Shown: piece after piece, positions 1,856 through 23,413 of the stretch
Layout of the letters: each line of letters starts with the position of its first letter
Position numbering within the stretch: the first letter of the stretch is position 1
Virus record (IMG/VR): IMGVR_UViG_3300020056_000095
Location: 1-32,565 of that record
Reading direction: 5' to 3' (one strand)
Source: a virus
Length of the DNA stretch: 32,565 nt
Translations under genes and position numbers: made by a program
The notes under the pieces: generated by a model
Told to the model about the DNA's origin: nothing
Seen by the model: the letters and a program-made list of their open reading frames with translations, nothing else
Databases searched by the model: none

Positions 1856-2094
1856 GTTTATGGGATAACATTCGAAAACGAAGAGCGGCGGGTAAGCCTA
1901 AATTAAAACCAGGTGATAAAAATTATCCAAAAACCTTGAATATTGAAGAAGTTCCAGGTGGTGCTAACACTGCATCAATTCCTAATCCAGCTACTACCTC
2001 TCAAGGACAGATTGCTGTTGACCGTAGAAGAAGAAAAGACAAGCATCCTAAACTCTTAAAGAGATTTAGAAGGTATGTAGAGGATGGCAAGTAA
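1852..2094 (+). CDS. Small basic hypothetical protein, 80 aa
   Basis: The start overlaps the previous stop as ATGA. The protein begins MSLWDNIRKRRAAGK, has a Pro/Asn/Thr-rich centre that is probably disordered, and ends in a cluster of Arg and Lys (DRRRRKDKHPKLLKRFRRY). It overlaps the next gene by 11 bases. I do not recognise a family. The charge pattern fits a nucleic-acid-binding or scaffold-like phage peptide, which is inference. Confidence 0.65.
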   Translation: MSLWDNIRKRRAAGKPKLKPGDKNYPKTLNIEEVPGGANTASIPNPATTSQGQIAVDRRRRKDKHPKLLKRFRRYVEDGK

Positions 2095-2530
2095 AATTTC
2101 AGAAAATACTGAAGTTGCTTTACCACTTAGAAATATTTTATCTTTAGTTGTAGGAGCAAGTATTGCCACGTGGGCATACTTTGGTATTGTAGAACGATTA
2201 AATAATATTGAAACATCACAAACCATGATGCATAATGATGTACAGATGAATACTGAGTTTCGTATTAAATGGCCTCGTGGTGAAATGGGAAGTTTACCAG
2301 CAGATAGCGAACAATTTATGCTAATAGAACATCTTGCTGGTGAATTAGATAAATTAACAAATGAAATAGAAAGTGGGCAAGCTCCGTTTGATCAACAACA
2401 ACAATTAACTCTAAACTTTTATAAAGATCGAATTGAACAATTAGAAAAAGCTCATGAAAAAATTCGTAATGATATAATGGATTTAGTTCATGATTTAAAT
2501 GGAATAAAACGTGTAAATGGGGGTCACTAA
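2084..2530 (+). CDS. Membrane-anchored coiled-coil protein, possible lysis gene
   Basis: 148 residues. A single transmembrane segment lies at about residues 17-36 (LRNILSLVVGASIATWAYFG), followed by a long helical region with heptad-like spacing (residues 40-140). The topology is an N-terminal anchor with a long extramembrane helix. It is the first of four consecutive genes with a membrane or signal segment, ending in the spanins. It may therefore belong to the lysis module (holin, antiholin or accessory), though no holin family motif is certain. The last base of its stop codon is the first base of the next ATG. Confidence 0.7.
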   Translation: MASKISENTEVALPLRNILSLVVGASIATWAYFGIVERLNNIETSQTMMHNDVQMNTEFRIKWPRGEMGSLPADSEQFMLIEHLAGELDKLTNEIESGQAPFDQQQQLTLNFYKDRIEQLEKAHEKIRNDIMDLVHDLNGIKRVNGGH

Positions 2531-2742
2531 TGATAGAGACTTTATTTGTTTTATTTCTTTATATGAACAACAAAGTGATAGAGTATACACCAAAGGACAG
2601 CTTAGTTGATTGTTTAGGAACTAAGCGCCAAATTGAACGAAATCTTGGTGATAGTAGCAGATATTCTTGTGAGAAGCATACTGTTAAAACTATGGAAAAG
2701 ACAAATGGCAAGAAAGAAATATTAGAATTTATTGAGGATTGA
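2530..2742 (+). CDS. Small signal-anchored protein, 70 aa
   Basis: The start overlaps the previous stop by one base. A short hydrophobic N-terminus (IETLFVLFLYM) is followed by a hydrophilic domain with two cysteines (DCLGTK and YSCEKH) that could form a disulfide in the periplasm. I recall similar short proteins in other marine T4-like phages, without known function. It lies between a membrane coiled-coil gene and the spanins, so an envelope or lysis-related role is plausible but unproven. Confidence 0.6.
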   Translation: MIETLFVLFLYMNNKVIEYTPKDSLVDCLGTKRQIERNLGDSSRYSCEKHTVKTMEKTNGKKEILEFIED

Positions 2743-2743
2743 T

Positions 2744-3193
2744 ATGGCTAGACTTTATTTAATATTACTAATTTTAGGATTAATGTCTTCTATTGGATAT
2801 GCTGGATATTCTTATTATATGTGGTCACAAGAAACAATTGGAACACTAAGAGAAAATAACGTGAAATTAAAATCTGCTGCAGAAACTTTACAAGTGACAG
2901 TAGATAAAATGGCAGAAGATGCACAAAGAAATGAAGAATTAAATCGTAATTTAACTAAACAATTACAAAAATCACAAGAGCACCTTGATAAACTCAGAGG
3001 TGTATTTGCAGAAATTGACTTGACTATGGAGGCATTAACAAATGCACAAGGACTCGAAGACAGGGTTAATGCAGCAGTTGAAAAGCTCATTAACAGAATA
3101 CAAAATGAAACTACTCCTCCTTCTGACGATCCCATTCCTACTGACAGCGTGCGGAATGAGGACACCGGAACCGGAAGTAGTGGTCCAAACTGA
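2744..3193 (+). CDS. Inner-membrane spanin subunit (Rz-like)
   Basis: 149 residues. The ATG at 2744 is preferred over an in-frame TTG at 2732 because GAGG at 2734-2737 sits six bases upstream of it. Residues 4-23 form one N-terminal membrane segment, followed by a long coiled coil (about residues 28-120) and a Pro/Ser/Thr-rich tail. This is the classic i-spanin design: an inner-membrane anchor with a periplasmic coiled coil. The next gene, a lipoprotein, starts inside this one in another frame, the arrangement known for Rz/Rz1 pairs. Spanins join inner and outer membranes in the last step of lysis of Gram-negative hosts. Confidence 0.8.
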   Translation: MARLYLILLILGLMSSIGYAGYSYYMWSQETIGTLRENNVKLKSAAETLQVTVDKMAEDAQRNEELNRNLTKQLQKSQEHLDKLRGVFAEIDLTMEALTNAQGLEDRVNAAVEKLINRIQNETTPPSDDPIPTDSVRNEDTGTGSSGPN

Positions 3194-3455
3194 ATATCAA
3201 GAACAACTTGTTCCTATTCAAGAAAGACCTAAAGCAGTAACTATGCCATCAGTTGATTGGTTTGTTATTACTGAAGAAAACCTAGAAGAAAAGCTAGCTG
3301 AAATCGATACTAAGACAGGCGATGTAGTTTTATTTGCTATAACTCCTAAAGGATACGAAAACCTAGCTCTTGGTATAGGTGACTTACGTAGATATATAAA
3401 GGATCAACAGGCTATCATAGGTTACTATGAAGAAGCTTTAACCTCAGAAAAATAA
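3105..3455 (+). CDS. Outer-membrane spanin lipoprotein (Rz1-like)
   Basis: 116 residues, in a different frame from the i-spanin and overlapping its last 89 bases. The ATG at 3105 gives a textbook lipoprotein signal: MKLLLLL, a hydrophobic core, then the lipobox L-T-A-C with Cys16 as the acylated residue. Earlier in-frame starts would bury this signal. After Cys16 comes a Pro/Glu-rich linker (MRTPEPEVVV), as in other o-spanins. The mature part is longer than lambda Rz1 and has a folded-looking C-terminus. No clear Shine-Dalgarno precedes it, so translation may be coupled to the i-spanin. Confidence 0.82.
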   Translation: MKLLLLLTIPFLLTACGMRTPEPEVVVQTEYQEQLVPIQERPKAVTMPSVDWFVITEENLEEKLAEIDTKTGDVVLFAITPKGYENLALGIGDLRRYIKDQQAIIGYYEEALTSEK

Positions 3456-11893: not shown

Positions 11894-12135
11894 TAAAGAT
11901 TTATGGTACTCCTTCATGTGGGTGGTGCAGGAAAGCAGTAAATGCTTGTGAACAGTATAACTTAAGATATGAATATATAAGTTTAGATACACCAGAAAAA
12001 CAAGAACAATTTAAAAAAGATTTTCCAAACGCTAAAACCGTTCCACAAATTACTTGGTATGGTAATTATGTTGGTGGGTATGAAGCGTTAATGACAGAAA
12101 TTGAGAATACACGTAATTACGGTGATGGACCATGA
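11890..12135 (+). CDS. grx: Glutaredoxin
   Basis: 81 residues from the ATG at 11890, which overlaps the previous stop as ATGA; a GTG two codons earlier is possible. It has the dithiol active site CGWC at residues 10-13 after the first strand MIKIYGTPS, the cis-Pro motif TVPQIT and the glutathione-binding end GGYEAL. Glutaredoxins reduce disulfides and commonly recharge ribonucleotide reductase. With a class II RNR at 3.6 kb carrying a C-terminal Cys pair, this is a likely electron donor. Confidence 0.93.
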   Translation: MIKIYGTPSCGWCRKAVNACEQYNLRYEYISLDTPEKQEQFKKDFPNAKTVPQITWYGNYVGGYEALMTEIENTRNYGDGP

Positions 12136-12854
12136 TTGAACCTCCAAAATATCAAAAGGATGCTGTTCCTACTTTAAAAGGTTGGAAACATCCAAAACGT
12201 AGAGAAATTTTAGTATCTAAAAAATTTACTCAAGAAGAAATTGATGAATATTTAAATGCCCAGAAAAAGCCAAAGGCTAAGCCTAAGCCTAAGCCAAAGG
12301 TAGAAAAGCCTAAAGTAGAAGTTAAAGAAAAGCCAAAGGCTAAGCCTAAGCCGAAAATCGCTGCAGATGTTTTAATAGAATTAGAAGGTGTTAAAATATT
12401 AGCAGGTGATGGAAAAATCATTTCTAAAAAAGCATTGGTTAAACGCGCTAAAGATAGAGTTGTAAAACAACCAAAGCCAAAGCCTTTGCCACCTGAAGTT
12501 AAGGTACAAAAGCCTAAAGAAGTTCAAAAGAACCGAAAAGAATTAATTGAAAAGCAAATAGAAAAACAAAAAGAAAAACCTGAAGTTAAGGTAGACGATA
12601 GATCAGAATTTATAAAAAAACAAAAAGAAAAAGTTGAAGCTGATGCAAAAAATTATGACTATACACATATCCTTATAAAAGGTTCTATGGGTCGAGGTGT
12701 TTTAAGATTATCAGAAAAGCTAGGTGTTGATCCTACTGAATACTTTTCTCAAGACTTAGAATGGAAATTAAGAGATTATCAAGCAATGAAAGGGTTAGTT
12801 GAGGATGGAATTTTTGGTCCAAAAACTCAAGCTAAATTATATGGAAATGAATAA
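12132..12854 (+). CDS. Lys/Pro-rich protein with C-terminal peptidoglycan-binding-like domain
   Basis: 240 residues. The N-terminal 40 residues are followed by a long Lys-Pro tract (about 44-75) made of a repeated KPKAKPKPK unit; the DNA shows the same 25-base sequence twice, 63 bases apart and in frame. A charged helical middle follows, then a C-terminal region (about 205-240) with LRDYQAMKGLVEDGIFGPKT, matching PG_binding_1 domains that hold cell-wall amidases and virion proteins to peptidoglycan. There is no signal peptide, so it may be a virion part or be released by lysis. No catalytic motif is visible. Confidence 0.7.
   Translation: MIEPPKYQKDAVPTLKGWKHPKRREILVSKKFTQEEIDEYLNAQKKPKAKPKPKPKVEKPKVEVKEKPKAKPKPKIAADVLIELEGVKILAGDGKIISKKALVKRAKDRVVKQPKPKPLPPEVKVQKPKEVQKNRKELIEKQIEKQKEKPEVKVDDRSEFIKKQKEKVEADAKNYDYTHILIKGSMGRGVLRLSEKLGVDPTEYFSQDLEWKLRDYQAMKGLVEDGIFGPKTQAKLYGNE
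12265..12352 (+). repeat. In-frame 25-bp direct repeat in the Lys/Pro tract
   Basis: The same 25 bases occur at 12265-12289 and 12328-12352, offset by 63 bases (21 codons). Together with nearby AAGCC/AAGCCT runs they encode the Lys-Pro repeats and could recombine to change the linker length. Confidence 0.8.
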
Positions 12855-14370: not shown

Positions 14371-14583
14371 ATGGCAGAAGACCGAAAAAACGATATCGTT
14401 GATTTACCTGAAGGTAGATTAGAATTATCACTTAGAGTTCTTGGTAATGAGCTTATAGGTGTAAAAATGATAGTTGACGATATGAAAATAAAATGGGTTG
14501 TTGTAGGAAGTATAGCACTTGCAGTTTTATTATGGGCAGCAGCAGGATTTGCTCCAGTGTTAAATTCTGTTTTTGGCGCATGA
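14371..14583 (+). CDS. Small single-pass membrane protein, 70 aa
   Basis: GGGAGAG stands ahead of the ATG. The first 40 residues are charged and amphipathic (LPEGRLELSLRVLGNELIG). A single membrane helix follows at residues 42-64 (KWVVVGSIALAVLLWAAAGF). It is two bases from the EF-hand membrane gene. The size and topology fit an antiholin or holin-accessory protein, but no family motif supports that. Confidence 0.6.
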   Translation: MAEDRKNDIVDLPEGRLELSLRVLGNELIGVKMIVDDMKIKWVVVGSIALAVLLWAAAGFAPVLNSVFGA

Positions 14584-14584
14584 T

Positions 14585-14992
14585 ATGGCTGAGAAAAACG
14601 CTTTTGGCGTAGAACAAAAAGTAAAACCTCCAGCAAAAACTTTGCAACCCGATTCTATCTTTGCACACTTAGATGCGGATGGTGATGGAGTTGTTACTGA
14701 TGAAGAAATGGCAAGGGCAAAAGAAATAGCTGAGTTTGAACATCGCGAAAGAATGCGTGAGAATGAAGATAAGAAAGAAGATCAAATTAGATCAATGGCG
14801 TGGTTTGCATTGTGGGGTATGTTATTATATCCGATTACAATAATAGCAACGTCATTTTTTGGACAAGAAACGGCAGCAAAACTAGTAAGCGATATAGCTC
14901 CGACTTATTTTGTCGCAATTGCTGGTTTAGTAGCAGCATTCTTTGGTGCTCAAGCTTATACAAAAGGGAAAAGCGACCCTCCTAAAAAATGA
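14585..14992 (+). CDS. EF-hand membrane protein, holin candidate
   Basis: 135 residues from the ATG at 14585 (a TTG at 14573 would overlap the upstream gene). A canonical 12-residue EF-hand loop, DADGDGVVTDEE (residues 30-41, with acidic ligands at positions 1, 3, 5 and 12), precedes a charged helix. Two membrane segments follow (MAWFALWGMLLYPITIIATSFF and APTYFVAIAGLVAAFFGAQAY) with a basic tail. Two closely spaced transmembrane helices with a charged C-terminus are typical of class II holins. A calcium-binding loop on such a protein is unusual. Function is inferred from topology only. Confidence 0.65.
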   Translation: MAEKNAFGVEQKVKPPAKTLQPDSIFAHLDADGDGVVTDEEMARAKEIAEFEHRERMRENEDKKEDQIRSMAWFALWGMLLYPITIIATSFFGQETAAKLVSDIAPTYFVAIAGLVAAFFGAQAYTKGKSDPPKK

Positions 14993-22319: not shown

Positions 22320-22918
22320 ACTACTACTTATTTGGGTTACAGAGATCAGGAACAAATTTAGTCCACAATTTAATTAAAGATAATTATGGATTGGAACCAG
22401 CAAATTCTGGACATGAAGAGTGGAAACACTCTATGAAACCTGATTTAAAAAATGATTATCCAATTTTTAAAGTAATCAAAAATCCATACACTTGGGTTGA
22501 ATCTATAGTTTATAGAGAACGTGCAGATTTTTATGAAAAACATGATTATGATTTTTTCCAACCAGGACCATTTATGGTGGAAGATGTTAATTTAAATATG
22601 TTGATGTACGTTTATAAAACTTGGTATGATCAATGGAAAGATAAAGGCATACTCATTAAATATGAGGATATTTTATATCCAGAACAACAAAGAGAATATT
22701 TTGCAAAACACTTTGGAGATTTAGGTGATTGGAAAACAGTTGCACCTGGATCTATGTTTATGTGTGAAGATTTTAAAGAAGAGCACTTAGAATATTATGA
22801 AAAGCAAAGACCAACGAAACTAACTGGTATGCATGTGAAAATAATTAATAAAGTGATGACTAAATATTTCTTTATTGAAACTGGATTTAAAATGTTAAGA
22901 GTAAAAGGATTAATCTAA
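22316..22918 (+). CDS. Sulfotransferase-like protein (copy 2), GTG start
   Basis: 200 residues; GTG at 22316 overlaps the previous stop. LFGLQRSGTNLVHNLI (5-20) is the PAPS phosphate-binding loop in the RSGTN form, and FKVIKNPYTWVESIVYRE is the 3'-phosphate motif, where Lys replaces the usual Arg in RNP. The fold looks complete. It runs into the minus-strand peptidoglycan hydrolase, overlapping its 3' end by nine bases. Substrate unknown. Confidence 0.72.
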   Translation: MNYYLFGLQRSGTNLVHNLIKDNYGLEPANSGHEEWKHSMKPDLKNDYPIFKVIKNPYTWVESIVYRERADFYEKHDYDFFQPGPFMVEDVNLNMLMYVYKTWYDQWKDKGILIKYEDILYPEQQREYFAKHFGDLGDWKTVAPGSMFMCEDFKEEHLEYYEKQRPTKLTGMHVKIINKVMTKYFFIETGFKMLRVKGLI

Positions 22919-23413
22919 AACCATAAATCTGCGAAATCCAATTGCAGTAGATAAAGGTCTTTCTCCAATTGTTACTTGGTTTTTATCATTTCCACTTATA
23001 ATAACAACATATTCTTTATTATCTCTTTTTCTCATTTCTAAGAAAAACCCAACATGACCTTGCCAGTCTTCACCATCTTCTCTTGGGAAAACTATAATAT
23101 CTCCTTGAGTTAAATCTTGAGGAAGAATTTGTTGGCCATATTGTAAAAAGCTTCTTGCAAGTAAAGATGTTTCAGGATCAATAATTTCAGTACCCCAATA
23201 TCCTGATTGTTGTAAAACTGAATTCATAAATGCTGCACACCAAGGTGTAACAAATGGATCGACATTAAGAAATTTTTTTAGTTCTTTTCTATGCGTTTTT
23301 TCATTATATCCAATATACATATAACTATTCGAAATAAAAGGATGAACGTAATCAGCCGCGGCTGAAGTACTTAGTGCTAGTGCACCTACTGTAAAAAAAG
23401 TAATTTTTTTCAT
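22910..23413 (-). CDS. Secreted peptidoglycan hydrolase (TIGR02594/NlpC-P60-like)
   Basis: 167 residues, the only convincing minus-strand gene. The first 20 residues form a signal peptide (MKKITFFTVGALALSTSAAA, cleavage before DY). The hydrolase core follows: TPWCAAFMNSVLQQSGY with nucleophile Cys59, LLARSFLQYG, GDIIVFPR, then QGHVGFFLE with His120 and SGNDKNQV with Asn142. This layout matches the TIGR02594 family of cysteine peptidases or amidases. A sec signal lets a phage endolysin cross the membrane without a holin. It is far from the spanins. No Shine-Dalgarno is obvious. It could also be an envelope-remodelling enzyme. Confidence 0.82.
   Translation of the reverse strand: MKKITFFTVGALALSTSAAADYVHPFISNSYMYIGYNEKTHRKELKKFLNVDPFVTPWCAAFMNSVLQQSGYWGTEIIDPETSLLARSFLQYGQQILPQDLTQGDIIVFPREDGEDWQGHVGFFLEMRKRDNKEYVVIISGNDKNQVTIGERPLSTAIGFRRFMVLD

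Follow-up and report, generated by a model that had tools for sequence, protein, structure and literature searches.

The window analysed here, the whole of an IMG/VR virus record of 32,565 bases, probably represents a fragment of a marine T4-like phage; it carries ribonucleotide reductase, PhoH-like, glutaredoxin-like and glycosyltransferase-like genes, recognized by eye, and three tRNAs. Positions 14585-14992 of its plus strand encode a protein of 135 aa that combines an EF-hand with two transmembrane (TM) segments and is a candidate holin or lysis regulator, the ATG at 14585 being a likelier start than the TTG at 14573 given in the open reading frame (ORF) listing. The EF-hand loop DADGDGVVTDEE occupies residues 30-41 (D30-E41; 14672-14707, plus strand), and hydropathy places behind it the predicted segments TM1 (residues 74-92; 14804-14860, plus strand) and TM2 (residues 104-122; 14894-14950, plus strand). 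Sequence and hydropathy thus confirm the canonical loop ahead of two predicted membrane helices that the sequence-only reading had described. The loop follows the canonical pattern D-x-[DN]-x-[DN]-G-x-[ILV]-x3-E, and the strict EF-loop pattern was matched once in the 62 plus-strand ORFs of the window (10,285 aa), against a chance level of 0.019 per window in shuffled proteins. With one loop match, paired EF-hands were not found in this protein. A separate EF-loop-like stretch, DRDRDGKLKPGV, devoid of the final acidic residue, lies within positions 3-914.

Upstream, positions 14371-14583 (plus strand) encode a 70-aa single-pass protein with a C-terminal TM segment (residues 43-61, by hydropathy), preceded by the SD-like sequence AGGGAGAG, identified by reading. 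The EF-hand gene does follow right behind it, as previously noted, starting one base past the partner's stop without an evident ribosome site before it; the two genes are therefore likely to be translated in a coupled manner. The partner found no match in Pfam, PHROGs or the phages collection. A search with the partner alone returned eight loci, with the EF-hand gene directly next in seven; the remaining contig breaks off within the partner gene. Six of the seven are closely related and encode an EF-hand protein of 109 aa that is nearer to that of CRP-207; their neighbours are unlike those of the window, and the two genes thus appear to act as a unit in two settings. Across six sets of loci (window, HTVC, CRP-1, DC31, SAR116 and CRP-345 types), the partner was present in 33/80 window-type loci, in 24 of them at most 150 bp from the EF-hand gene, and in 0/368 loci of the other five sets. 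The proposed pairing with a single-pass protein therefore stands as a two-gene unit, restricted to part of the family.

Two overlapping spanin-like genes, an Rz-like i-spanin candidate (2732-3193, plus strand; phrog_739, E 1.6e-8) and, in another frame, an o-spanin candidate (3042-3455, plus strand; phrog_812, E 4e-12), adjoin the ribonucleotide reductase gene 10.9 kb from the EF-hand gene. The candidate endolysin, a CHAP/TIGR02594-type hydrolase with a signal-like N-terminus (22910-23413, minus strand), lies 7.9 kb from it, so that the earlier placement of spanins 11 kb off and a secreted hydrolase elsewhere was broadly right. This hydrolase matched TIGR02594 (E 4.1e-18; 66 bits, under the 70.55 cut-off), CHAP (E 3.8e-5; 24.5 bits, under the cut-off of 26) and the tail lysozyme family phrog_1259 (E 7e-18). 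PHROGs also matched a TM and coiled-coil protein (phrog_20984; 2084-2530, plus strand); in 7/80 HTVC-type loci, a homologue is encoded no more than 150 bp from the EF-hand gene. A lysine/proline-rich protein encoded at 12132-12854, 1.7 kb upstream of the EF-hand gene, bears PG_binding_1 at its C-terminus (E 4.2e-7), with weak matches to endolysin PHROGs (best 8.7e-4) and none to catalytic domains. The EF-hand gene itself is flanked by small genes and glycosyltransferase-like genes, and the neighbourhood in the window alone was uninformative as a clue to function.

The family to which the protein belongs is without a name in the libraries and literature searched. The window protein stayed below the curated cut-off of Pfam EF-hand_1 (E 5e-4, 19.9 bits versus 25.4), as did the members from HTVC008M and DC31, while a family profile compared with solved structures matched EF-hands over the loop region only (best E 1.3e-6). 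The best PHROGs match of the window protein was to a family of unknown function (E 0.023), NCBIfam returned only the EF-hand stretch of XopAW (21 bits versus 120), and GTA_holin_3TM (PF11351) gave no match at E up to 1. An EF loop and two TMs are shared with phrog_27150, a family of unknown function of the Sinorhizobium phage phiN3 gp119 type, which matched phiN3 gp119 at E 1.2e-95 and the CRP-1 member at E 9.2e-12, and the window protein only at E 0.45. IMG/VR scans with one query each yielded at least 590, at least 582 and at least 591 relatives, and those with three other members 193, 325 and 48, with possible overlap among the six. The phages collection held 11 records for the window protein, one more via CRP-9 and seven Sinorhizobium records via phiN3, with the relatives in phage records named "hypothetical protein"; in the case of CRP-345, the match overlaps the following gene as well, which is annotated as spanin2 family. 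A scan of genome contigs added eight loci, in MAGs and one SAR116 contig. Exactly one family match was found in each of 23 distinct records (15 + 13, five common to both; picked for carrying the gene, and several perhaps fragments), at differing addresses. Median lengths of the sets range from 101 to 129 aa, compared with 135 aa for the window protein.

Alignment of the window protein with those of seven isolates, 29-50% identical to it, left D30, G33, G35, E41 and E59 as the only invariant columns, all but E59 falling within the loop. The loop was kept in 177/180 unique relatives, in 237/240 loci of the first three sets and in 445/448 loci over all six, the latter comprising 357 distinct EF gene sequences, none common to two sets. 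In two of the three loci scored without it (L059 and L250), an open frame at the edge of the contig does contain the loop, and the third (L134) is truncated within it, giving 447/448 loci once contig-edge frames are counted. Since all 240 loci also hold the search pattern outside the loop, its presence was not forced by retrieval. Judged from these sequences, loop conservation is far beyond chance and points to strong constraint; calcium binding is a putative property of the loop.

Charge distribution in the relatives (mean K+R of 2.51 before TM1, 0.73 between the TMs and 2.6 after TM2) predicted an N-in topology for 60/63 proteins and a C-in topology for 57/63, placing both ends and the loop in the cytoplasm. 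The AlphaFold model (mean pLDDT 74.1, pTM 0.41) contains a single helix spanning residues 39-91, from the loop into TM1, and a second at 95-129; the continuous helix suggests a mechanical link from calcium binding to TM1, in a model that is weak around the loop (blocks of 56-66). The model found no PDB counterpart at E ≤ 0.001; a single viral match, unnamed and at 49% identity, was returned. Class II holins of the S21 type have two TMs with both termini inside and measure roughly 65-95 aa. The EF-hand protein resembles them in its two predicted TMs (hydropathy and model helices), predicted N-in/C-in topology and positive C-terminus. Its gene adjoins endolysin and spanin-like genes in several lineages, but placement in a lysis cassette is uneven across the family, with enrichment in the CRP-1, DC31, SAR116 and CRP-345 types and none in the window, the window's subfamily or the HTVC type. 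The protein differs from class II holins in being longer, in its N-terminal canonical EF-hand and in showing no sequence match to them. The canonical 12-residue loop is shared with calmodulin and Kv-channel-interacting proteins, whereas here a single unpaired EF-hand is fused to two TMs.

The association with lysis genes was quantified with seeds comprising endolysins, spanin-like proteins, one 3-TM holin, and the spanins and hydrolase of the window, chosen from the loci by Pfam/PHROG matches, annotation or resemblance and then searched in all loci; because some seeds originated in the very loci that were searched, and the members of a set are related to each other, the resulting counts are not independent. 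A lysis gene was found within 3 kb of the EF-hand gene in 80/80 CRP-1-type, 80/80 DC31-type, 57/80 SAR116-type, 42/48 CRP-345-type, 35/80 window-type and 1/80 HTVC-type (T4-like) loci, and within 100 bp in 55, 72, 28, 20, 3 and 0 of these, respectively; leaving out the 3-TM holin seed reduced the SAR116 and CRP-345 counts within 100 bp to 12 loci each. As a control, we compared the EF-hand gene with the remaining genes of its loci, restricted to those of at least 8 kb, for proximity to a lysis gene within 100 bp. The EF-hand gene scored 22/33 versus 59/576 for other genes in the CRP-1 type, 38/42 versus 49/475 in DC31, 9/31 versus 36/329 in SAR116 and 4/10 versus 16/136 in CRP-345, and no enrichment was seen in the window type (2/52 versus 42/951) or the HTVC type (0/14 versus 2/157). 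Two sets thus show a strong association, two a moderate one and two none, and the previously suggested holin-type role gains from the neighbourhood in several lineages and the predicted topology while finding no lysis enrichment in the window's own subfamily or in the T4-like type.

The lysis enzymes near the EF-hand gene are of several unrelated kinds (phrog_465, M15_3, GH24 and GH108) and come with spanin-like partners, the endolysin seeds resting on matches to these four and to Hydrolase_2. In CRP-345 and CRP-1 the EF-hand gene adjoins putative endolysin and lipoprotein genes; the CRP-1-type lipoprotein seed matched only PHROGs of unknown function, and its CRP-345 homologue is annotated as spanin2, with an Rz-like PHROG at 1.7e-4. 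The DC31 gene sits between a protein with a C-terminal TM and an Rz-like protein (phrog_2466, E 3.9e-7), with an L-alanyl-D-glutamate peptidase one gene off; one Rz seed was barely above the Pfam cut-off. The EF-hand gene abuts a GH24 lysozyme gene in L261 and L262, and adjoins GTA_holin_3TM and GH108 in CRP-810. Within the window type, a Hydrolase_2 wall hydrolase lies near it in 27/80 loci, and spanin-like genes lie a few genes upstream in seven (L028, L037, L040, L042, L043, L045 and L047). In L028, whose protein is 84% identical to that of the window over the best segment, the order is a PG-binding GH19-like gene (GH19 match under, PG-binding domain above cut-off), overlapping spanins (phrog_739 and phrog_812), then the EF-hand gene, followed by one for a TM coiled-coil protein (phrog_937); ribonucleotide reductase is encoded a few genes further along. 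The CRP-207 gene adjoins a "lysozyme"-annotated gene whose product resembles a TM coiled-coil protein. Two products annotated as lysozyme, MZ892987.1 gp73 and OR671924.1 gp51, look like TM and coiled-coil proteins (gp51 by eye), and gp73 has no lysozyme match in PHROGs. A protein of ~155 aa with one C-terminal TM (phrog_32327; L122:1466-1927 type) occurs in 142/448 EF-hand loci of all six sets and is a possible candidate lysis partner. In six loci, a small hydrophobic protein (phrog_10198; L037:5375-5602) directly follows the EF-hand gene, with which it could possibly form a holin/antiholin-like pair.

These neighbourhoods indicate that the EF-hand protein is probably part of lysis, a role to which we give good credence; as the pore itself it is a tentative candidate, and the T4-like placement, the lack of enrichment in the window's subfamily and the GTA_holin_3TM neighbours keep regulator and tail roles alive. 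As a regulator, the protein would be a calcium-sensing antiholin or trigger of another pore, such as GTA_holin_3TM or a single-pass protein, which we regard as a serious though unlikely alternative. The EF-hand gene has a GTA_holin_3TM-type gene no further than 150 bp away in 16/80 SAR116-type and 8/48 CRP-345-type loci (24/128), and likewise in CRP-810 and L259, and several single-TM proteins accompany the gene. GTA_holin_3TM is a separate family that shares the cassettes in some phages, sometimes adjacently, and that the EF-hand protein does not match. According to a review (PMC6209664), release of RcGTA requires holin- and endolysin-like proteins, and this neighbour family may therefore well be a pore former. 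A second predicted holin, which goes part of the way towards the clear holin elsewhere that was named beforehand as speaking against the holin reading, occurs in some relatives, whereas PF11351 had no match in 12/13 records carrying the EF-hand gene, some of them fragments. The T4 holin (PF11031) had no match in 13/13 such records, with T4 detected as a positive control. Against the regulator also stands that, by hydropathy, the EF-hand protein is the only two-TM protein scored inside the DC31 and CRP-1 cassettes, as it is the only credible one in the window by simple hydropathy. The CRP-345 cassette also holds a two-segment spanin-like protein, other two-TM ORFs occur elsewhere in DC31, CRP-1, CRP-345, CRP-207 and Melnitz, and HTVC008M has another credible one of 67 aa (by eye); eliminating other two-TM proteins is thus suggestive only.

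It is improbable that the protein anchors the T4-like tail or baseplate in the membrane or helps to assemble it, or that it is part of the virion and acts when the genome enters. In HTVC008M, Melnitz, phiN3 and phiM12 the gene does have gp51 on one side and a tape-measure-like gene on the other, with gp51 directly upstream in 46/79 HTVC-type loci, but other lineages place it in lysis cassettes, the corresponding slot of cyanophages S-SM2 and S-RIM2 is without a separately annotated gene, and in 182-kb and 201-kb contigs its single copy adjoins what we take, by eye, to be large topoisomerase-subunit-like genes and not tail genes. Least probable is an unrelated small membrane protein travelling with late genes (e.g. 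in superinfection exclusion or ion balance), which would suit the small and glycosyltransferase-like neighbours, the distant endolysin and spanin candidates and the unenriched subfamily of the window, but not the repeated placement beside differing lysis enzymes in four other sets.

Our preferred reading, held tentatively, is an inner-membrane holin-type lysis protein with class-II-like topology and a cytosolic calcium sensor joined to TM1. The link to calcium-rich seawater drawn in the sequence-only reading is rejected, as the loop is kept in the freshwater Limnohabitans phage DC31 and in Sinorhizobium phages, phiN3 among them, and is predicted to be cytosolic. Free calcium is low in the cytoplasm, and any signal would therefore be calcium entering. 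Before lysis, the loop would be mostly empty; a first leak would admit calcium and fill it, and the model predicts that the helix behind the loop continues without a break as TM1. Lone EF-hands frequently form pairs, and those crowded side by side in a membrane raft could do so, whereupon calcium would hasten the opening of the pore and lysis would become abrupt, with the 70-aa partner as a modulator, possibly a putative antiholin. Such gating by the putative sensor is somewhat doubtful, and slightly more so the extension to a family of calcium-gated holins of marine, freshwater and soil phages that includes the candidate holin of SAR11 and OM43 myophages. Lysis timing is otherwise attributed to the accumulation of holin and to membrane potential; a calcium-sensing holin, if real, would add a chemical trigger and give a name to many hundreds of aquatic virome proteins.

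The protein also offers a testable pore candidate for pelagimyophages. Melnitz and HTVC008M both encode it, annotated as hypothetical, together with spanin-like genes. For Melnitz, PMC9004378 proposes a CsgGF curli pore as a pinholin analogue; that pore belongs to the outer membrane, whereas the EF-hand protein, encoded in the same genome, is a two-TM candidate for the inner membrane, and both are proposed answers to the question of the pelagimyophage lysis pore. Titles and abstract openings retrieved for EF-hand, holin and phage dealt mainly with endolysins or phage genomes, and a search for pelagiphage and EF-hand found nothing. In the sections seen, PMC5795418 mentions an EF-hand protein predicted for phage phiAC-1 and draws no connection to lysis, and in those of PMC5107563 the matching term stands in a reference title only; the terms holin and EF-hand are absent from PMC9038755, PMC7029224, PMC6918029 and PMC3037559.

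According to the Melnitz paper (PMC9004378), the phage has no lysin-like genes apart from gp67. An annotated cell wall hydrolase is, however, encoded in that genome at MZ577097.1 42214-42741 (L486), with a Hydrolase_2 match at E 1.1e-21. Spanin-like ORFs lie beside a DUF1353 gene both in HTVC008M (NC_020484.1 116428-117276; phrog_739, E 4.4e-6) and in Melnitz (MZ577097.1 24483-25514; phrog_812, E 5.3e-15), and in L257 a DUF1353 gene follows the EF-hand gene.
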